Assembly (NCBI RefSeq): GCF_000487995.2
Contig: NZ_CP097562.1
Location: forward strand, 1,051,001 to 1,115,000
Source: Mucispirillum schaedleri ASF457
GTDB lineage: Bacteria > Chrysiogenota > Deferribacteres > Deferribacterales > Mucispirillaceae
DNA length: 64,000 nucleotides
Direction of reading: 5' to 3'
Shown here: positions 12,712 to 63,792 of the stretch, piece by piece
How the letters are laid out: each line of letters starts with the position of its first letter
Position numbering within the stretch: the stretch's first letter is position 1
Made by a program: the position numbers and the translations under genes
Notes under the pieces: generated by a model
Databases searched by the model: none
What the model was told of the DNA's origin: nothing
The model's input: the letters and a program-made list of their open reading frames with translations, nothing else

Positions 12712-13203
12712 TTACTTCACAGTATGCAGAGCACCTGATTTTGTTACAGGTCTTGTTTTGTGACATACAAGACAGTTTTTAGATGGGGTGTTATTCCAGC
12801 TGCCTACGGGAACTACACAGCTTGTGCCACAGTGGGAGCCTGCTCCTGATACAAATCCTGCTCGGGCATGGCTCATTGGATAGGATGTCTCATGACAGCT
12901 GTCACAGAAATCTTCTTTATGACATGTCTGACATGTTGTTCTGTTCCATCTGGATTCTAACCCATGTGTTTTATTCACAAAGGTTACTGTATGGTTTCTT
13001 GGAGCAGTATCTTCATGACAGGATATACATTCTACTCGTTCTTCATGGCACATTATGCATTCGCTCATATTAGTTTTGGCTGCCTGACCATGCTTCTGCT
13101 CCCAGCTGCTGTTATGGGTAGAAGGCTTAGTGGAATCTACTGCTGATGTTACACCTGCTGTAAGAAGAAATAATAAGATGATTAGTAATAAATTCTTTTT
13201 CAT
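12712..13203 (-). CDS. Periplasmic pentahaem cytochrome c
   Basis: A signal peptide (KKNLLLIILLFLLTAGVTSA) leads a 163-aa protein with five CxxCH haem c sites (CIMCH, CISCH, CQTCH, CDSCH, CLVCH) and an extra non-haem CGTSC pair. It should carry electrons in the periplasm. I start at the ATG at 13203; a GTG nine bases upstream directly abuts the porin stop and lacks a Shine-Dalgarno sequence. As the last gene after porin, chaperone and DmsAB-like subunits, it is the likely electron donor to the reductase, matching the place of the MtrA/DmsE cytochrome in Shewanella systems but with half the haems. Confidence 0.9.
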   Translation of the reverse strand: MKKNLLLIILLFLLTAGVTSAVDSTKPSTHNSSWEQKHGQAAKTNMSECIMCHEERVECISCHEDTAPRNHTVTFVNKTHGLESRWNRTTCQTCHKEDFCDSCHETSYPMSHARAGFVSGAGSHCGTSCVVPVGSWNNTPSKNCLVCHKTRPVTKSGALHTVK

Positions 13204-13212
13204 ATCCTGCAC

Positions 13213-14754
13213 CTACCAGATAAAGTTTGCCCAGATACTTAATGTATGAATATCTGGCTGTAAGTCGGCACTTTTAAAAAGGTCTGCATATTCATAACTA
13301 TAATCAACCTGTAACACACACCAGTCTATTGGGCGATACATCGCTCCAATGTATGCCATTGTGGTATTTTCATTTCTGTCTTGTAAACTAACCATATCTT
13401 CTCCATACTGCGGGTAGGATTTTATCGGGCTGTTTCTATACTGATAGTTCTGAACATTTACTCCTGCCCATGCTTCTAGTCTATCTGTAAATACCTGAGT
13501 TATACGAAAACCTCCCATTACTTTAGAATTGCTGTCCTGTCTCTTATATGCTGCTACATCATACCAGTCTACTATTAAACTTAAATAATTGTTTTTATGG
13601 AGTAAACCCACAAGGTCTATATTACCGAATACTCTCTGGTAGTCTCTGTCGCCATAGCTTTCACTGAAATTAAATCGTGTTTCCCAGCCTATTCCTAATA
13701 CTAAATAGTCAGTTATTCCCTGTGTAACCATTACTCCGCCCATTACATATTCACTGCTGCCGCCCAGCATATTTTCATACATGGATATATACGGGTTTAT
13801 ATCGCCTTTATTCTTATCATACTGACCTGCTATGTAGGCTGATATGCCTGTGCGGCTTATATCTATATTCGCATCCAGACCTGCTTCATAAAGCATAGCT
13901 TTACCTATTATGGCTCCTTCCAGATAGATATTGGATGATATTATATCGGGAAAGGATAAGCTCTGGTCTATTCTGCCTCTGGCAGTATGGGTGTTAAAGT
14001 CTCCGCCATCTTCATGTATGAAGTAATTATACTCGGCTCTGATTTTTGTGCCGCTTATCGTTACTGGAACTTCTATCGCTGCTCCTATTAAAGATGTTTT
14101 TAAATTGCTGTAATAGCTGACAGGCAGACCGCCGTATATGTCAAGCTTAAAATAGTCACAGGTATCAAAATGAAAACTGCCGCCGTCTATTTTATACATA
14201 TCTAGATTGTTTAAATATATTCTGCCTGCTGTTATATCTGTATACGGCACTACTCCTTTAAACTCTACATTAGCCTGATATATTCTAAAATTACCATCAT
14301 ATTTACCGTTTAAGCGGGTGTATTCATCATATTTGCGGGAAGTATATAAGCCGTCATAAAACTGGTTATATGAATTTCCTGAATAGCTTGATGACTGGCC
14401 ATCCATTGTGCTGCCACCAATATCTGGAAGACTGTCATAAGCTCCACGAATATTTAAGTTTACATTCACTGTGCCTTGACCTAGTTTCGTTTCACTTAAT
14501 CTCAGACGGGCATACTGATAAATTGACCAGTCTTCATCTTCTCCAAATTTAAATGCAGCTCTTGTTGTTAACCCTATTTTTAATATGCCTGTATCTCCAA
14601 AGCTGAGACCGTTAAGGCTTGCTTTGATACCGTTGGCATTCACATGTCTGCTCCAGCTGTCTGGGGTTACATAAGAATCGCCAACATAGGAATATGCTGG
14701 AACTGCTAAAAACAGAAAAACAACTAATATAATATTTATTAAACTTTTTCTCAT
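13213..14754 (-). CDS. Outer-membrane beta-barrel protein (porin, DmsF/MtrB-like role?)
   Basis: A cleavable signal peptide (residues 1-22, ending VPAYS) is followed by ~490 residues of alternating amphipathic strands rich in Tyr, Gly and Asp, ending ...LSIWANFIW. The terminal aromatic residue is typical of outer-membrane barrels. I do not see a specific family motif. MtrB/DmsF conduits are usually longer (~650-700 aa), so the comparison rests on position between the molybdoenzyme genes and a multihaem cytochrome. The alternative is an ordinary substrate porin. Confidence 0.75.
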   Translation of the reverse strand: MRKSLINIILVVFLFLAVPAYSYVGDSYVTPDSWSRHVNANGIKASLNGLSFGDTGILKIGLTTRAAFKFGEDEDWSIYQYARLRLSETKLGQGTVNVNLNIRGAYDSLPDIGGSTMDGQSSSYSGNSYNQFYDGLYTSRKYDEYTRLNGKYDGNFRIYQANVEFKGVVPYTDITAGRIYLNNLDMYKIDGGSFHFDTCDYFKLDIYGGLPVSYYSNLKTSLIGAAIEVPVTISGTKIRAEYNYFIHEDGGDFNTHTARGRIDQSLSFPDIISSNIYLEGAIIGKAMLYEAGLDANIDISRTGISAYIAGQYDKNKGDINPYISMYENMLGGSSEYVMGGVMVTQGITDYLVLGIGWETRFNFSESYGDRDYQRVFGNIDLVGLLHKNNYLSLIVDWYDVAAYKRQDSNSKVMGGFRITQVFTDRLEAWAGVNVQNYQYRNSPIKSYPQYGEDMVSLQDRNENTTMAYIGAMYRPIDWCVLQVDYSYEYADLFKSADLQPDIHTLSIWANFIW

Positions 14755-14763
14755 GTAGTTATC

Positions 14764-15477
14764 CTAATTTTTTGTTTCTGCAAGAATATTTTTAATATCT
14801 TGAAGAAAAATATAATTTTCATTAATATAACCTTCTGTAAATTCTGCTAATTTGTTATAATAAATTTTCTTGATTGGAGAATTATGAATATTAGCAGTGA
14901 ATTTTTTTATCCATTTAGAAAAATGCTTATTATGGACATAAAGTTGTTTGTCTACTAATATTTCAAGTGATAAATAATCTTTTTGCTCAACTAATTCTGC
15001 ACCTATATTATTATAAAGAGCCATAAGATATGTTTCAAAACCAATATGGTCTTCAGGCTCATTATAAAGTTTTCTTGGGTTTATTTTTTCTATGCTGAAA
15101 AGTTTAAGCATATCATCTCTTGCTTCCTGCATTTCAAGATTATTTTGAGATGTATACACAGATTCTGACATTGGTATTGCCACAGACCCTAAACAAAAAA
15201 GAGAAGTATATTCCATTAGTATCTCTGTATCATAGGCTGCCAGTTTATTATATTCTATACAGTTTCTTTCACTTATAACATTAGATATACCTTCTATACC
15301 ATTGTTTAAAAGTGTATTACTGTCACTTTTCAGCATTATCAAGCACTCTTTTAAATCATTAAGCATTTGGAAATATGTATCACTTACAGGCTCAAAATAT
15401 GAGCGAGAAATAAATTGGTATACAACTTCACTGCCTTTAAATATTTTGTATAAATCATTTAAATAATTTTCTAACAT
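14764..15477 (-). CDS. TorD/DmsD-family chaperone
   Basis: TorD-type chaperones bind the Tat signal and apo-form of a molybdoenzyme until cofactor is inserted. The 237-residue helical protein has the family signature EPEDHIGFE and the upstream EYTSLFCLG...P segment. I start at the ATG at 15477, with AAGGA 8 bases upstream. A longer frame from 15495 has no ribosome site, and its ATG lies in a hairpin stem. Its place right after the Fe-S subunit makes the DmsA-like protein its client. Confidence 0.85.
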   Translation of the reverse strand: MLENYLNDLYKIFKGSEVVYQFISRSYFEPVSDTYFQMLNDLKECLIMLKSDSNTLLNNGIEGISNVISERNCIEYNKLAAYDTEILMEYTSLFCLGSVAIPMSESVYTSQNNLEMQEARDDMLKLFSIEKINPRKLYNEPEDHIGFETYLMALYNNIGAELVEQKDYLSLEILVDKQLYVHNKHFSKWIKKFTANIHNSPIKKIYYNKLAEFTEGYINENYIFLQDIKNILAETKN

Positions 15478-15491
15478 TCTCCATTTCCTTA

Positions 15492-15521
15492 ACATCCAGA
15501 TACTTTTACATATCTGGATGT
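15492..15521 (-). other. Intergenic hairpin between Fe-S subunit and chaperone genes
   Basis: A perfect 11-bp stem (acatccagata/tatctggatgt) with an 8-base loop and no T-run on the operon strand. It may stabilise or process the mRNA to give unequal subunit expression; it is not a classical terminator. Confidence 0.6.
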
Positions 15522-15528
15522 ATATTGC

Positions 15529-16179
15529 TTAGTGTGTTTTAAATATAATATTTAATGGATTTCTTGGTATAATTAAGAAAGATGGTCCTGTATCCTCATT
15601 ATCATTTTGGTAAGCATAAGGAAATTTGTTTTTATTTATAGTAACTGCTGCTGGGTAATCCCTTTTTAACTCATCAATTGGTCCCCAGTGGATTGCTCTG
15701 CCTACACAACTTGCAACACATACAGGCTCCTGCCCATCATTTACTCTGTCTATACACATATTACATTTTTGTGCTGGGTGAGAAATCTGCCATCCACCTT
15801 GTTTTTCAGGTTCCTGATAGTCATCTGCTATACCAATCGCGCCAAATGGGCAGGCAGTAATACAAGCTAATACTCCTATACATTTTTCTCTATCTATAGA
15901 TACTATGCCTGTGTTAGCATCTTTTGAAATTGCATTGCTGGAGCATGCTTTTACACATGCTGGTCTATCACAGTGGTTACAGCTCATAACTAAATTTTCA
16001 ACATTTTGCAATATTGAAGTCCGTGTGGTAACATCATATCCTTCATTAGTTTTTTCATGTCCCACATGTTTTCTCCATCTAACTAAACCTGATTTTACCT
16101 GATTCCAGTCTTTACATGATACAGTGCAGGCATTGCAGCCCATACATCTTGATTGGTCAAATACAAATCCGTATTGCAT
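15529..16179 (-). CDS. DmsB-like four-cluster ferredoxin subunit
   Basis: A 216-aa electron-transfer subunit of the DmsB/NrfC type. It has the Cys clusters CMGCNACTVSC, CNHCDRPACVKAC, CIGVLACITACP and, near the end, CNMCIDRV with CVASC. In the third cluster the second Cys of the usual CxxCxxC is Val (CIGVLAC; codon GTA), so one cluster may be a [3Fe-4S] form. There is no signal peptide, so it would be co-exported with the Tat-bearing catalytic subunit. A strong AGGAGG precedes the ATG, 10 bases after the catalytic gene. Confidence 0.92.
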   Translation of the reverse strand: MQYGFVFDQSRCMGCNACTVSCKDWNQVKSGLVRWRKHVGHEKTNEGYDVTTRTSILQNVENLVMSCNHCDRPACVKACSSNAISKDANTGIVSIDREKCIGVLACITACPFGAIGIADDYQEPEKQGGWQISHPAQKCNMCIDRVNDGQEPVCVASCVGRAIHWGPIDELKRDYPAAVTINKNKFPYAYQNDNEDTGPSFLIIPRNPLNIIFKTH

Positions 16180-16189
16180 GATTATCCTC

Positions 16190-19100
16190 CTAAGCTTTCT
16201 CTACAAATACTACTATTGACATTTGAGCATTGCCATGGTCACAGCGTGTTGGGGTTGATGCACAAAGTGTATTTGAACAGCCGCCATCATCTATGCCATT
16301 TGCATCTGGGTCATACCAGCCACCCTGTGGAAGTAATGTTACACCTTTACTCATTCTATTAGATAATTTAGCAACAGCATGGACAGAGCCAATAGGATTA
16401 TATACTTTCACAAGGTCGCCATCTTTAATGCCTTTTTCATACGCATCAGACGGATTCATCCATAAAGCTTCATATCCACATCCTGCTTGACCAACAGGAG
16501 TAAGCCTTTTTAATGTAAGTTTAGTATTATATGGAGGGTTTATATCTGCAAAATCTGGAAGCACATCTGCAAATATATCAGTATCTGTTGAAGCTTTTCC
16601 ACCTATAGCATATTTCCCAAGTTCTCTTACAAGCGGACTTTCATTAAATGTAGAGTGGGAACGATATCGTATATGAGTGCCAAGGTTAAAGAATGGTTTG
16701 TTGTTATTATCTTTAAATAAATCTTTTCCATAAGCTTGTTTAAAATAATCTCTATAATCAAAAAATACGGGAATATTATAAACAAGTGGGTCGCCCTGAT
16801 TATCAGTATTTTTATTTCCCCTTTCTTCAATAGGAAGATAACCATGAAATTTTTCATTTCTATGCTCATATTCCCATACCATAACATCAGATAATACATG
16901 AAAACGATATGACATTTTAGGATCATTAGTATCTACTATATAATGCTTATAGTCGTTGCCTGTCCCTGTTCTACAAGACTGACCATCAAATGTATTAATA
17001 ACACCTGCTCCACTACTTGCTTGAATAAATGGAATAGTCATATCTGTTGCTTTATAGTCATTAAATGCAGTAAGTATTGCATTTTCAGATAAAGACTTAG
17101 CATCATTTAAAGCAACTGGCTTACCAAGAATATAGCCATCTTTTTGATAATTTTCAAAAGTTCCCCACCGTCCTTTTGCTTCATCATTATTATTAAATGC
17201 CTGTTCAATTAATGAATTTGGAGTATCATTTCTTGAAGCAAACTCGCTGTTTAATCCTGCATAATATCCACCATCTATTTCTACTAAATATTTTGCTAAT
17301 AATTTATTCATTTCAAAAGTAGATTTAGATTCACCTGGTCCATCTATTACTTTAGGCATATATATTTGTTGAGAAGCACCAGCACCATTGATAATATCAG
17401 TCATTTCCCAGTTAGCTGTGCCAGGAAGTGCATAGTCTGCCCAGCGCATAGTTGGTGAAAAGTTAGTATCAAGAGCTATATAGCAAAAACCGTCTGCATT
17501 TGATGGGTCTTCTGGATAAAATGGCAGACATTCAAGCATTTCTGCTGTATCATTTGAATTCATATGCTGATTAATAATTGCATTACCTGCTGCAGTGTAT
17601 ACAAACCTAATACCTGAATATACAGGTTTATTGCCATTCATTTCTACTGCATAATATCCATCAGGACCTACTTCATAGCGTTCTGCAGAATTATGATTTT
17701 GATTAATATAGTCTAATATAGAGCTGTTTTTAAATGTGGAACTTAATTTATGTTTTACAAATGATTTGATATTTGCATCATCTGCATAAGAATAACCAGC
17801 TGTAAATTTATTCATATCCATATCAGGAATATATCTGCCAGTATATCCATTTCTTTTTAATTCATCAGCAAATGCAAATTTTACACCAGCATGCCACATT
17901 GAGCATGATGGAAGTTTTGGAACAGTATTTGCATAGTTTGCTTTATCACTGTTTGCTGTTTTGTATACAAGTTTAGGAATTTCTGTATCATATTGAGCAT
18001 TATATGCAGCAGCCTGATAATAGCCTGCACCGTCTACACCCCAGCCTTTTGAAATAATTGAAAGGTTTTGTAATGCAAATAAATAGTTTACACCTTCTGC
18101 ATTTCTTTGCCATCCATTACTGCAATGATGAAGAACACCTTTCCCTGCTTTTACTGTATCACATATATTTTTAGCCATTTCCTTAATTGTAGCAGCTGGA
18201 ACACCACATATACCTTCTGCCCATTCTGGAGATTTTGCTTTTCTTAAATCTTTTTTATAATAATATGCTGCATTTGCACCAACAGTATTATCCTTTCCAA
18301 GTTTGCATCTTCCACCTCTTACTTTCTGAGATGATTTTGAAAATTCTAAAGAGTTATAGTTTACTTTACCATTTATTGCTGTGCCATATTTTGCTTCTGC
18401 TAAACGATTATCTTCATTACCTAATATATAATCAGCATAAGAATATCCAGCAGGAACTGCATTAACTTTTGTATATCCATTTTGTGATGTAAGGCTGATA
18501 TTTCCTGTTGTGCTGTCTATATAATATTCTGGAGAAGCAAAAAAGCCATAAACCATAGTATCAAGATAATCTACATCTAAGTAAGCATCTTCTTTTATAG
18601 AACCATCAGGATTAAATGTATTTACAAGCATTTCATAGATAATGGCTGAAATAAGTGCAACATCTGTCAACGGATTAAGCTGAACCCAGTCTGTTGCAAG
18701 AGTAATACCTGTATCTTCAAGAGTTGGACTCATATGCCATACTCTGCCACCTTTGTCTCTGATAGTTTGAGCACTGATTATTGCAGAATAAGCATAAGGA
18801 TTAGAAGAAGTAAGCTGATGAGAACCCCATAAAAACAAGCTTCCTGTGTTTCTTTGCATTAACTGGGTAGTGTTACTTTTACCGTATGCACCTGTATATG
18901 TTGTGCCAAAATATGAAGCAGAATGTGCACTATAGTTATAACCCTGGTGCAGATAACCACCACTTAATGGTCCAATAACCGCTGCAAATACAGATGATGC
19001 ACCATTACCACCACCACGCTGATATGGACCCTGCTGACCACTTGACATATGATTATATATTGCTTCAGAACCATATTTTTGCAAAATTGCATTATATCTT

Positions 19101-19602
19101 TGAGCAATTTCTTTCATAGCCTGTTCCCATGTGATGCGAACAAAACCTGTTAAATCACCGCGTTTTTTAGTTTGTTTTAATGGATATTTCATTCTGCTGG
19201 GAGAATAAAGACGACCTGCATAGCTTCTACATCTAGAACATGCACGGCTTTGAGGATTACTCACTTCATTTTCAAAACTTTTATCATAAGCGCGTTCGTC
19301 AGTGAGTATACGAACTATTTTACCATTTTTCTTAACTGCCCGAGTTACACATCTTCCGCCACAGTTATGTCCAGCAGTTCCTGCCCATACTGAAGCAACA
19401 CCACTGTTAATATCATTTACAATGTTTTCCTGCTCACCAGTTGAGCCGCCAGCCCCCCCCCGTATATAATATCTGAACTGCCATCTTTAGAGCAGCCATA
19501 CATGGCAGCCATTGCACCAAGTGCTGCTGTGCCTTTTAAAAAGGAACGCCTTGATACTGAGCTTTCTTCTAATGATTTTAAAACATTAGTTTCTTTTCCC
19601 AT
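16190..19602 (-). CDS. DmsA-like Tat-exported molybdopterin reductase, out of frame at a G9 tract (phase-off?)
   Basis: A catalytic Mo-bis-MGD subunit of the DMSO reductase family. From the ATG at 19602 (GGAGG 7 bases upstream) the first ~46 codons give a twin-arginine signal (SRRSFLKG) and a lipobox-like AAMYGC. Nine G (19453-19461) then shift translation to a stop about 15 codons later. The other frame continues to 16190. With ten (or seven) G, one ~1137-aa protein results, with the N-terminal Fe-S ligands NCGGRC and ACSRCRSY, then RMKYPLK and ITWEQAM as in DmsA, and the C-terminal domain ending GGWYDPDANG. It is ~300 residues longer than E. coli DmsA. The substrate is unknown. Alternatives to phase variation are an assembly error or transcriptional slippage. 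Confidence 0.85.
19453..19461 (-). repeat. Homopolymer G9 (C9 on +) tract in the DmsA-like gene
   Basis: Nine consecutive C on the plus strand in an otherwise AT-rich sequence, 3-4 codons after the lipobox-like Cys region. The tract sits exactly at the frame change of the gene, so gain of one base or loss of two would restore the full protein. Confidence 0.9.
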
Positions 19603-19734
19603 ATTCTTTGCCTCCAAATTAGTTTATAAGCTAAAACTATAAAAAATATTTCACTTAGTCAATATCTAAAAATACATAATTTATACAAATTTAACATTTT
19701 TGATATATTTGTTAATATTGCATTATGTATTGAT

Positions 19735-57547: not shown

Positions 57548-58697
57548 TTACTATTCCCCCTGTTAATTCATCTAATATTTTATTATTTTGAATATATAGT
57601 TCTTCCAGTGATTGATTTTCTATAATATAAAATCCCCTGTTTAATACATGTGATGTATTTGTAATTTTACCTATATATTGATTTTTTATAATATTATATT
57701 CCATGTAGATGATTTTATATTTATTTTGTATATATGAAATATCCAAATCTTTATCTACACACATATTCTCAAATGGTATATACTGTAATAATGTATAGCT
57801 GTTTGATTTTGATATTTTTGGGTTTGGTTTATTAAGTAATTGGTTAATATAATAGTCATATATATTAAATCCGCAAGATGATATAATTAATTTTGATGTA
57901 ATATTAAGACCTGCTGCTCTAGGTGATATATCAATAATATATGCTTCATTATTTTTCAATATAATATCTGCATGAAATACTGCACTATCTATATTCATAT
58001 TATTAATATATATATTTAATATATTATAAATTGTATTGTAGTCTTGATTAGAAATATTTGCAGGCATTATATAGGCAAGTTCCTGCCTATACGGCTCAGG
58101 TGTTATCTGTTTGCTGCGAATATTTAAGAAATGGAATTCCCCCCCCCCGATAACTATGTCGCAGCCATACTCAACACCTTGAATATATTCCTGTATTAAA
58201 TATTCTCCATAGCTGCCATCATATTTATTATAAACTTCATCAAGTTCATTTTCATTATATACAATTTGGACATCTTTACTGCCAGAACCAAATTGTGGCT
58301 TTAAAATGGCAGGAAAAACAATATTATCTTTTTGGTATATCTGCGGAAAGGCAAGACCATTTTTTTCTAAATATTTATTATTTTTTAGTTTATCTGAACA
58401 TATATCACAGCATGAAAACGAAGGACCTTTAAGCCCAAAATAATCATTTAAATACCCTGCTGTAACAACATTTCTACCAACAGGGCTTGGAAGAACACCA
58501 CATATATCATATTGTGATAAAATATCTGCAATTTTTTCTTTTTCATGTATACTGATATTGTAAAATAAATCAGGTTTTACTAAACTATAATCACATTCTT
58601 TCATATCAAATGCAATTACCTTTAACCCTTTAGACATAGCAGTATTAATTGCAAATGCTTGTTCTTCTCCAGCACCTAGGGAAACAATATATTTCAT
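57540..58697 (-). CDS. ATP-grasp ligase with internal G10 tract (phase-variable, in frame)
   Basis: A 385-aa ATP-grasp protein. The N-terminal pre-ATP-grasp fold reads YIVSLGAGEEQAFAIN, and the ATP-grasp core contains PAILKPQFGSGSKDV, EYLIQEYIQGVEYGCD and HADIILKNN with IIDISPRAAG. Such enzymes form amide or ester bonds with amino acids; here they could decorate a sugar. A run of ten G encodes VIGGGEF (residue ~185); one slipped base would truncate the protein mid-domain. It begins directly after the symporter stop (TAA ATG). Confidence 0.82.
   Translation of the reverse strand: MKYIVSLGAGEEQAFAINTAMSKGLKVIAFDMKECDYSLVKPDLFYNISIHEKEKIADILSQYDICGVLPSPVGRNVVTAGYLNDYFGLKGPSFSCCDICSDKLKNNKYLEKNGLAFPQIYQKDNIVFPAILKPQFGSGSKDVQIVYNENELDEVYNKYDGSYGEYLIQEYIQGVEYGCDIVIGGGEFHFLNIRSKQITPEPYRQELAYIMPANISNQDYNTIYNILNIYINNMNIDSAVFHADIILKNNEAYIIDISPRAAGLNITSKLIISSCGFNIYDYYINQLLNKPNPKISKSNSYTLLQYIPFENMCVDKDLDISYIQNKYKIIYMEYNIIKNQYIGKITNTSHVLNRGFYIIENQSLEELYIQNNKILDELTGGIVNE
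58139..58148 (-). repeat. Homopolymer G10 (C10 on +) tract in the ATP-grasp gene
   Basis: Ten consecutive C on the plus strand inside the coding region, in frame as sequenced. It is the longest G/C run in the window and a likely slipped-strand switch. Confidence 0.9.
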
Positions 58698-61933: not shown

Positions 61934-63792
61934 AACTTCTTTATGCTGTTTTAATTGGCCTTGCAATATTTACAGTTATCAGGCTGATAATATTCACAGT
62001 TTATTTTGATTTATTTAAAGAAAACAGTGCATGGAGCATATTTTTAGCACTGCTCCACGGCATAAGGTTTGATACATCTATCTTTTTAACAATAATATCG
62101 CCTTTTATTGTGCTTTTACTATTGCCTGTTAATTCTCAAAAATATCATAAAATAATATACTGGCTTATGTTTCCAGTATATGCAGTAATTACCATATACC
62201 TTGTTATAGATGCTGTATATTTTGGCTATGTTTCAAGACATCTGGCAGGTGAATTTGCCGCATTAGGCAATGATTATGAATTTATATATACAATGGCAAA
62301 AACTTACTTTTATATGGTGTTTATAGTATTAGCCATTATTGCAGTATGCGGTTTTTTCTGGAAAAAATTTGCAGATATTAAAGTAAAAGATGTAAATATT
62401 TCTAGAAACAGCTTAATTAAATCTGCACTTTATTTTATTCTTATAGGCGGCATTGTATTTATATTCATAAGAAGCAGTTTTGATATTAAACCAATAAGCA
62501 CAATTAATGCTTTTGTAAGTGGAAATAATGCACTTGCCAACCTTACTTTAAATGGATTATTTACATCTCTTAGATATATGACGGAAAATGAAGCAGTGTC
62601 TAAAGATATGTATTCATTTTATGATGACAGGCAGGCACATGAATTTATACTGTCATTGAAACATGAAAACTGCACTCATCCTTATACTGAAATTAAAAGA
62701 CCTAATATTATTTTTATCCTGCTTGAAAGCTGGAGCAGTTATTATGTAGATGCTTTTTCAGGCTCTAATATGCAGCTGACACCAAACTTTAACAGACTTG
62801 CATCTAATAGGGGGGGGATTATATTTAGTAACCACTATTCCCCTGAAAGACGCAGTATATCTGCAATACAAGCTATCCTTTTAGGCATACCTCCTATGGA
62901 TAATATTCCAAAACTTGGCTTTGGTCTGGAAACTATTGCAGGAAGCGGCAATCTTGCTTCAAACCTTAAAGAAAATGGATATGACACAGTCTTTATACAG
63001 GCATCAAAAAGAAACTCTTTTTACCTTGATGTGATTGCAAAATCAATTGGATTTCAGGAATATTATGGTATGGAAGATATTAAGCAGATACTAGACTATC
63101 CAGACTATAAAGCATCTCAGTTTGGCTGGGACTATGAAACATATATGAAACTTGCAGAAGTTCTTAAAAATAAAGGAAAAGATAAACCATTTTTTGCATT
63201 TTTATTTACAGGCACAACCCATATTCCTTATGCTGAGCCAAATAAAATAAATGTAAAATTTCCACATGATATAAACAGTGAAAATGGCTTTAAAAATACA
63301 CTTGTATATGCTGACTGGAGTTTAGGCGAATTTATTAAAAAAATAGAAAATGAAGAATATTTTAAAAATACCATATTTATTTTTACAGCAGACCATGTAT
63401 TAGGCAACTTTGAAAAGCAGGAATTTCCAGATGATTTTAAAGTGCCGCTTTTAATATGGTCTCCATCATTTAAGGGAAATCAAAAAATTACATCTTCAAC
63501 TAATCATGTAGATTTACCACCTACTATTTTAGGGCTTGCAGGACTTAATGATAATCTATCAGAATATATTGGTGAAAACATATTCTGCAAAGATAATAAC
63601 AGCTACAGCATAATTCACACATGGGGCTCTGCTGCAATAATTAAAAATCATGAATGGCTGAAACATTCATTTAAATATATGCTTGAAAGCAGTCCAAAAA
63701 ATATGGAACAGGACGAAAAAGATTATCTATCAAAAATACTTCTTTCATATTATCAGGAAAGTTATAATATCATGACAAAGGGGAAAAAATAA
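61918..63792 (+). CDS. LtaS/MdoB-like sulfatase-fold transferase with internal G8 tract
   Basis: A 624-aa inner-membrane protein. Five N-terminal helices (to ~190) precede an extracytoplasmic alkaline-phosphatase-fold domain with IFILLESWSSYY (metal Glu), SPERRSISAIQAIL (probable Ser nucleophile), FTGTTHIPY and FTADHVLG (metal Asp-His). Relatives move phosphoglycerol or phosphoethanolamine onto glycans or lipids. Eight G at 62810-62817 encode NRGGII (residue ~300), in frame as sequenced. It follows the two phosphoesterases and precedes thpR (TAATG junction). Confidence 0.85.
   Translation: MHRYLKLLYAVLIGLAIFTVIRLIIFTVYFDLFKENSAWSIFLALLHGIRFDTSIFLTIISPFIVLLLLPVNSQKYHKIIYWLMFPVYAVITIYLVIDAVYFGYVSRHLAGEFAALGNDYEFIYTMAKTYFYMVFIVLAIIAVCGFFWKKFADIKVKDVNISRNSLIKSALYFILIGGIVFIFIRSSFDIKPISTINAFVSGNNALANLTLNGLFTSLRYMTENEAVSKDMYSFYDDRQAHEFILSLKHENCTHPYTEIKRPNIIFILLESWSSYYVDAFSGSNMQLTPNFNRLASNRGGIIFSNHYSPERRSISAIQAILLGIPPMDNIPKLGFGLETIAGSGNLASNLKENGYDTVFIQASKRNSFYLDVIAKSIGFQEYYGMEDIKQILDYPDYKASQFGWDYETYMKLAEVLKNKGKDKPFFAFLFTGTTHIPYAEPNKINVKFPHDINSENGFKNTLVYADWSLGEFIKKIENEEYFKNTIFIFTADHVLGNFEKQEFPDDFKVPLLIWSPSFKGNQKITSSTNHVDLPPTILGLAGLNDNLSEYIGENIFCKDNNSYSIIHTWGSAAIIKNHEWLKHSFKYMLESSPKNMEQDEKDYLSKILLSYYQESYNIMTKGKK
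62810..62817 (+). repeat. Homopolymer G8 tract in the LtaS-like gene
   Basis: Eight consecutive G inside the coding region just before the nucleophile motif. The frame is intact, so the gene is in the on state if it is phase-variable. Confidence 0.85.

Follow-up and report, generated by a model that had tools for sequence, protein, structure and literature searches.

Why should a gene for a respiratory reductase open with an intact export leader and run into a stop after some 60 codons, with the rest of the protein encoded in another frame? The question is raised by a locus in the window, meaning here the whole stretch of 64,000 nucleotides that was analysed, from the genome of Mucispirillum schaedleri ASF457 (G000). 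A sequence-only reading had described nine G behind a Tat and lipobox leader, an early stop and the remainder of a DmsA-like protein in a second frame, and had interpreted the arrangement as a terminal reductase under contingency control. The description is confirmed: the leader occupies exactly 19417-19602, and the stop falls 11 residues past the tract. The front of the gene consists of the following features, where OFF denotes a tract that puts leader and body out of frame and ON one that joins them.

19417..19602, minus strand: leader open reading frame in its present (OFF) frame, 61 aa; leader copies in several genomes of the genus share 92-100% protein identity
19453..19461, minus strand: G9 homopolymer, the putative phase switch, encoding Gly-Gly-Gly in the leader frame; G8, G9 or G10 stands there in 35 homologues
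16190..19450, minus strand: body of the DmsA-like catalytic subunit, in a frame other than that of the leader, with Molybdopterin and Molydop_binding domains; dN/dS 0.13-0.16 against orthologues

The G9 of the coding strand appears as C9 on the plus strand at window positions 19453-19461. From the ATG at 19602 the leader frame reads MGKETNVLKSLEESSVSRRSFLKGTAALGAMAAMYGCSKDGSSDIIYGGGLAAQLVSRKTL and then stops at 19417. On the minus strand the Tat leader itself is SRRSFLKGTAALGAMAAMYGC, followed by the linker SKDGSSDIIY and the nine G. The order within the open reading frame is thus a twin-arginine signal (SRRSFLK), a lipobox-like Cys (in the context MYGC here and VAGC in the ON copy described below), the linker SKDGSSDIIY-GGG, 11 out-of-frame residues and the stop. 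The linker contains three consecutive GGG codons, and GGG makes up 4% of the Gly codons (13 of 301) in eight genes of the window. The second frame is open from 19450 to 16190 without a stop and encodes 1,086 aa past the tract. A GTG at 19264, taken as the start by the ORF finder (1,024 aa), is unlikely to be the start of the body because the N-terminal Cys motif, recognised by eye, would lie upstream of it.

A domain scan places PF00384 and PF01568 above their cut-offs in all four DmsA-like bodies of G000, this one included, as expected of members of the DMSO reductase superfamily. The best family for the full body is TIGR02166 (DmsA/YnfE), at 299 bits against a curated cut-off of 777.7, and the protein is therefore called DmsA-like. 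In an alignment, YNYS of the window body pairs with GDYS of 1dmr, which would put a Ser at the Mo-ligand position of DMSO reductase. Four further genes follow in the operon.

15529..16179, minus strand: DmsB-like 4Fe-4S electron-transfer subunit, part of the variable core; TIGR02951 at 146 bits (below the cut-off of 214), PF13247 above cut-off
14764..15495, minus strand: TorD/DmsD-like chaperone, part of the variable core; PF02613 at 53 bits, cut-off 22
13213..14754, minus strand: predicted 513-aa outer-membrane beta-barrel, part of the constant module; an AlphaFold2 model (pLDDT 61, moderate confidence) shows 22 strands; 97-99% DNA identity among four copies
12712..13203, minus strand: 163-aa c-type cytochrome, part of the constant module; five CxxCH motifs by count

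The barrel finds no match in Pfam or NCBIfam. Its model, at pLDDT 31 from the single sequence and 61 with 15 homologues, is too low in confidence to name a family; a fold search against the PDB returned AlgE/OprD-type porins at low TM (0.3-0.5), and MtrB is absent among the 50 best matches listed. The pentahaem cytochrome has no meaningful match in the PDB or Pfam.

A decaying pseudogene with one frameshift, which the out-of-frame state of the gene in three genomes might suggest, is contradicted by the data and deserves hardly any credence: about 1,090 codons carry no other lesion, dN/dS between OFF orthologues stays at 0.13-0.16, and the DmsB, chaperone, barrel and cytochrome genes are intact. 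By this measure of substitution the OFF bodies are under purifying selection. The earlier judgement that decay is unlikely, which hung on there being no series of other disabling mutations, thereby gains support.

The leader is not confined to the window. A search with 49 aa of it finds four close copies in G000, 82-100% identical, each of which ends in G9 and precedes a different DmsA-like body. The copies at 608, 1014143 and 1070453 are OFF, the last being the window locus; the copy at 2270982 is ON and encodes 1,212 aa. The window body shares about 40% identity with each of those at the other three loci. Related genomes hold several further such leaders apiece. In G005, of a sister genus, 18 leader matches occur, many with a G tract of their own, which indicates a still larger reductase family.

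Altogether 35 tract-bearing homologues are found in seven genomes of two genera. Eleven are in frame and 24 out of frame, near the one-third expected if the frame were random (the states of L147 and L149, at a contig edge or in odd codon phase, were set from the length of the open frame). Tract lengths in the assembled genomes cluster at nine. The window-type orthologues in G000, G011 and G014 are all G9 and OFF and need the same frame change. A second type, marked by DLTPDYIRYG, is G9 and OFF in G000, G008, G011 and G014 and is G10 and ON in G006; a third, marked by EDLSNPKIYY, is G9 and ON in G000 and G8 and OFF in G011. Across the family some OFF copies require one extra G and others one fewer.

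These counts bear on the possibility that the tract is truly in frame and the gene simply ON, the assembly being in error. Homopolymers are error-prone in long reads, and a miscount could alter any single tract call in G000, whose single contig, spanning four repeats of about 2 kb at 99% identity, must presumably have needed long-range data; the genomes of the relatives were assembled from metagenomes, and repeats in them may have been joined wrongly. An error of this kind is nonetheless very improbable. The sequence-only reading had conceded that ten G in all isolates would point to one, and the G9-OFF orthologues in G011 and G014 come from two independent metagenome assemblies. Moreover, 24 of the 35 homologues are OFF at G8, G9 or G10, and their true lengths would still need to vary.

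Improbable too, if less so, is programmed slippage, in which G9 would be fixed and an RNA polymerase or ribosome slipping on it would always yield some full-length protein from the 'OFF' gene. G runs can be slippery, and the uniform G9 of the three window-type orthologues, with one frame change needed in each, is what such a site would produce. A fixed site would, however, hold one length and one direction, whereas frame changes within the family run in both directions, G8 and G10 occur, a third of the copies are already in frame, and in G006 one type that is otherwise G9-OFF has G10 and is in frame. A single programmed frameshift site, a single assembly error or decay would not account for lengths from G8 to G10 combined with changes in both directions. 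The lengths, the states and the two directions of change are the pattern of slipped-strand phase variation. The family combines a repeat beyond chance, frame-altering length differences among homologues and OFF copies that are intact and selected, the marks of a contingency gene. The interpretation offered in the first reading is therefore supported, and the tract probably flips within a population.

The tract is one of many. A pattern search of the 2,347,083 bp of G000 finds 43 G/C runs of at least nine (33 of nine, 8 of ten, 2 of eleven), where 0.13-0.52 are expected for the entire genome under Markov models of order 0-3 trained on the window with its own long G/C runs removed. Runs of exactly eight number only 6. 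Nearly complete genomes of the genus hold 10-37 runs of exactly nine and one sister genus 60; members of the order outside the family mostly have 0-2 G9 runs, some families more. Loss of mismatch repair was considered as the cause and rejected: mutS and mutL (MutS1, MutL) are present and intact in G000, so slippage would proceed without a boost from such a loss. The tracts of G000 make up a putative genome-wide phase-variable set. By eye, the genes that carry them look like MBOAT-like acyltransferases, glycosyltransferases, a sulfatase-like gene with two tracts, and lipoproteins. Several tracts are intergenic with a common context such as ATGGGGGGGGGAATGTCAA. A tract also lies in the upstream region of a chemoreceptor-like gene (by eye). 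Within the window a C10 at 58139-58148 lies in frame in an ATP-grasp-like gene (ON), and a G8 tract lies at 62810-62817.

A larger fact lies beyond the first reading: the shared leader with its tract fronts several different reductases, in operons that have constant ends and exchangeable cores. An alignment of the four G000 operons divides the window operon as follows.

19448..19718, minus strand: constant 5′ module of upstream region, leader and tract, 72-98% identical to the other G000 copies
14701..19452, minus strand: variable core of DmsA body, DmsB and TorD-like genes; about 52-55% DNA identity to the DmsA bodies of the other operons
12712..14700, minus strand: constant 3′ module of about 2 kb, barrel and pentahaem cytochrome, 98.7-99.3% DNA identity among the four G000 operons, and 98.8-99.0% between the window copy and the other three

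The constant 5′ part starts about 115 bp upstream of the ATG and ends at the tract, and between the constant parts the DNA of the four operons can be aligned only in patches. In each of three species the barrel copies group together as a single clade (100% bootstrap), with 98.4-98.8% identity within and 83-92% between species. The cores of one genome share about 40% identity with one another; the best match of each is its orthologue in another species, mostly at 76-97%. The constant parts thus appear homogenised within each genome, and the cores keep their own history.

Exchange can be followed at two sites. At the oxaloacetate decarboxylase cluster G000 holds the window core, and G008 and G011 hold a different, unrelated one. 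At the pstS-like/efp site G008 and G011 hold different cores between flanks that are about 90% identical on both sides. Followed from the left flank, the two sequences stay homologous up to and including the final G of the tract, and they become homologous again close to where the barrel gene begins. The edge of the exchangeable part thus coincides with the tract. The exchange is best supported by contigs spanning both flanks (C25 of G008, C22 of G011) and by single-contig G000. Fragmented assemblies contain many contigs of 4.6-5.2 kb that start or end in leader or barrel, as expected if the constant repeats break assemblies. Comparison of assembled sites thus shows exchange of cores between species, and the near-identical ends make recombination between them the probable route. 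All four operons are complete and have a leader and an upstream region of their own, which sets them apart from silent cassettes of the pilE/pilS type, where partial silent copies feed a single expression site.

Diverged relatives of the operon parts also occur. A barrel homologue at 1547740-1550616 of G000 (L219; also L220 in G014), 56% identical, has its own in-frame G9 in the coding sequence; behind it lie genes for a pentahaem cytochrome and for a lipoprotein-like protein that has two CxxCH motifs, and no DmsA gene is adjacent. Next to ribosomal protein genes, G008 and G011 have a further, diverged reductase operon (L214/L215), with a tract upstream of the start of the DmsA-like ORF (C9 in G008, G10 in G011).

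The window gene is, at a probability of roughly 0.85, a phase-variable terminal reductase and one of a family of cassettes with swappable cores. The shared 5′ module contains the upstream region, the Tat signal with its lipobox-like Cys and a Gly linker whose codons form an uninterrupted run of G. When the DNA is replicated, slipped-strand mispairing would alter this run by one base, which would allow reversible switching within a population. An in-frame tract would yield a full Tat-exported molybdoenzyme of about 1,137 aa, other lengths a stub of about 60 aa. Each exported enzyme may have a dedicated chaperone for its maturation and a dedicated Fe-S subunit as its partner, and recombination between the constant ends, which their near-identity would permit, could move cores among sites and lineages. 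By analogy with Shewanella DmsEFAB, the cytochrome and barrel most likely connect the quinone pool with a reductase that sits at the outer membrane and perhaps faces the cell surface. If the switches act at random and independently of one another, the cells of a population would differ in the set of terminal reductases that they express, and the population would thereby have a respiratory bet-hedge; in the assembled G000 the tract is OFF in three of the four cassettes.

The same switch could serve another purpose, the reductases being surface lipoproteins varied to evade phages or antibodies. Other G000 tracts lie, by eye, in surface-glycan, acyltransferase, lipoprotein and chemoreceptor-like genes, the usual contingency class; the lipobox-like Cys and the barrel suggest an outer-membrane site, and the cores are diverse. 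The part that is diversified is nevertheless the enzyme core, and the Fe-S partner and chaperone are exchanged along with the enzyme, which points to substrate diversity; surface evasion is rather unlikely. For the respiratory hedge in its most specific form the odds are about even: a respiratory analogue of antigenic-variation families, in which gene-converted constant ends would allow whole-core exchange, the tract would act both as switch and as core edge, and cells would stochastically wire acceptor-specific reductases onto one shared outer-membrane conduit.

Several known systems share parts of this design. The opa repeat of Neisseria sits in leader-coding sequence. Neisseria has about 11 complete opa paralogues, each phase-variable (PMC3745409). 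The reductase cassettes likewise comprise several complete paralogues with a slippage repeat in each leader, apparently independent switching and recombination among copies, and by this analogy opa phase variation is the closest design. The opa products are adhesins, however, whereas those of Mucispirillum are molybdoenzyme reductases with partner genes; the repeat here is poly-G, and the constant module also covers the downstream barrel and cytochrome genes.

DmsE of Shewanella is a large, MtrA-like decahaem cytochrome. It belongs to DmsEFABGH, the extracellular DMSO reductase of S. oneidensis (PMC11302344), which resembles the window operon in combining DmsA, DmsB, a TorD-like chaperone, an outer-membrane partner and a multihaem c-type cytochrome in one operon. 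Unlike DmsE, the Mucispirillum cytochrome packs five haems into 163 aa and falls short of the large MtrA-like type, and neither its sequence nor the 50 best PDB matches listed in the fold search mark the barrel as MtrB-like; the operon is therefore not classed as a member of DmsEFABGH. Mucispirillum also differs in having several such operons, with exchangeable cores and a switch.

Among poly-G/poly-C loci, the report on Helicobacter bizzozeronii gives 80 repeats and 43 candidate genes in a bacterium without mismatch-repair genes (PMC3234257). The Helicobacter and Campylobacter loci resemble those of Mucispirillum in tens of runs of at least nine, a small genome and mostly surface-structure genes. 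Unlike H. bizzozeronii, Mucispirillum has MutS and MutL, and four terminal reductases carry the switch; the passages cited on such repeat genes name no terminal reductase family. In Neisseria gonorrhoeae fixP (ccoP) is a listed candidate repeat gene with (AT)5 in all four strains compared (PMC1097732); it too is a respiratory-chain gene with a slippage repeat, but a single oxidase gene and not a cassette family. The commensal Cutibacterium acnes shares with Mucispirillum dozens of G/C homopolymers that affect reading frames; the lengths of its variable tracts followed phylogeny, suggesting slow accumulation, and what varied in its DMSO reductase was whether the gene was there at all, not a tract (PMC4746626).

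In the open-access literature no published phase variation in Mucispirillum or of the DMSO reductase family was found, and the words phase, frameshift and pseudogene are absent from the M. schaedleri genome paper (PMC5285517). Random frame-switching tracts are known mainly for surface sugars and adhesins, and contingency loci are seen as devices of surface antigens and phage receptors. Gut Mucispirillum cells probably flip interchangeable anaerobic-respiration enzymes on and off at random. Core energy metabolism would then be bet-hedged in a gut where acceptors vary with diet and inflammation, and a switched reductase family with exchangeable cores on a common conduit would amount to an opa-like design for terminal respiration. 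An uncharacterised DMSO-reductase-like system, not mapped to a particular cassette, is among only 11 M. schaedleri genes that go up in inflammation (PMC5285517); ON and OFF states could accordingly affect the bloom and explain differences between cultures. Annotation pipelines would label most of these genes pseudogenes.

The cassette plan appears to predate the switch. Genera of the order outside the family have tandem arrays of barrel, pentahaem cytochrome, DmsA (constant leader, variable body) and DmsB, in which the linker after the Cys is again Gly-rich (GGGGGG) and is written in mixed codons (GGC GGA GGC GGC GGC GGT). The same plan with a mixed-codon linker suggests that the plan is the older element, and a Gly linker in GGG codons may have made the slippage tract possible. 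In one such array (L261-L262, G032:C1:193341-214000) four operons, without a G tract, follow one another in tandem at intervals of about 5.8 kb; their barrel, cytochrome, leader and DmsB sequences are near-identical, and their DmsA bodies differ. In another genus (L264, G037:C1:2485063-2499257) IS3-like transposase genes adjoin such operons and may have aided their spread.
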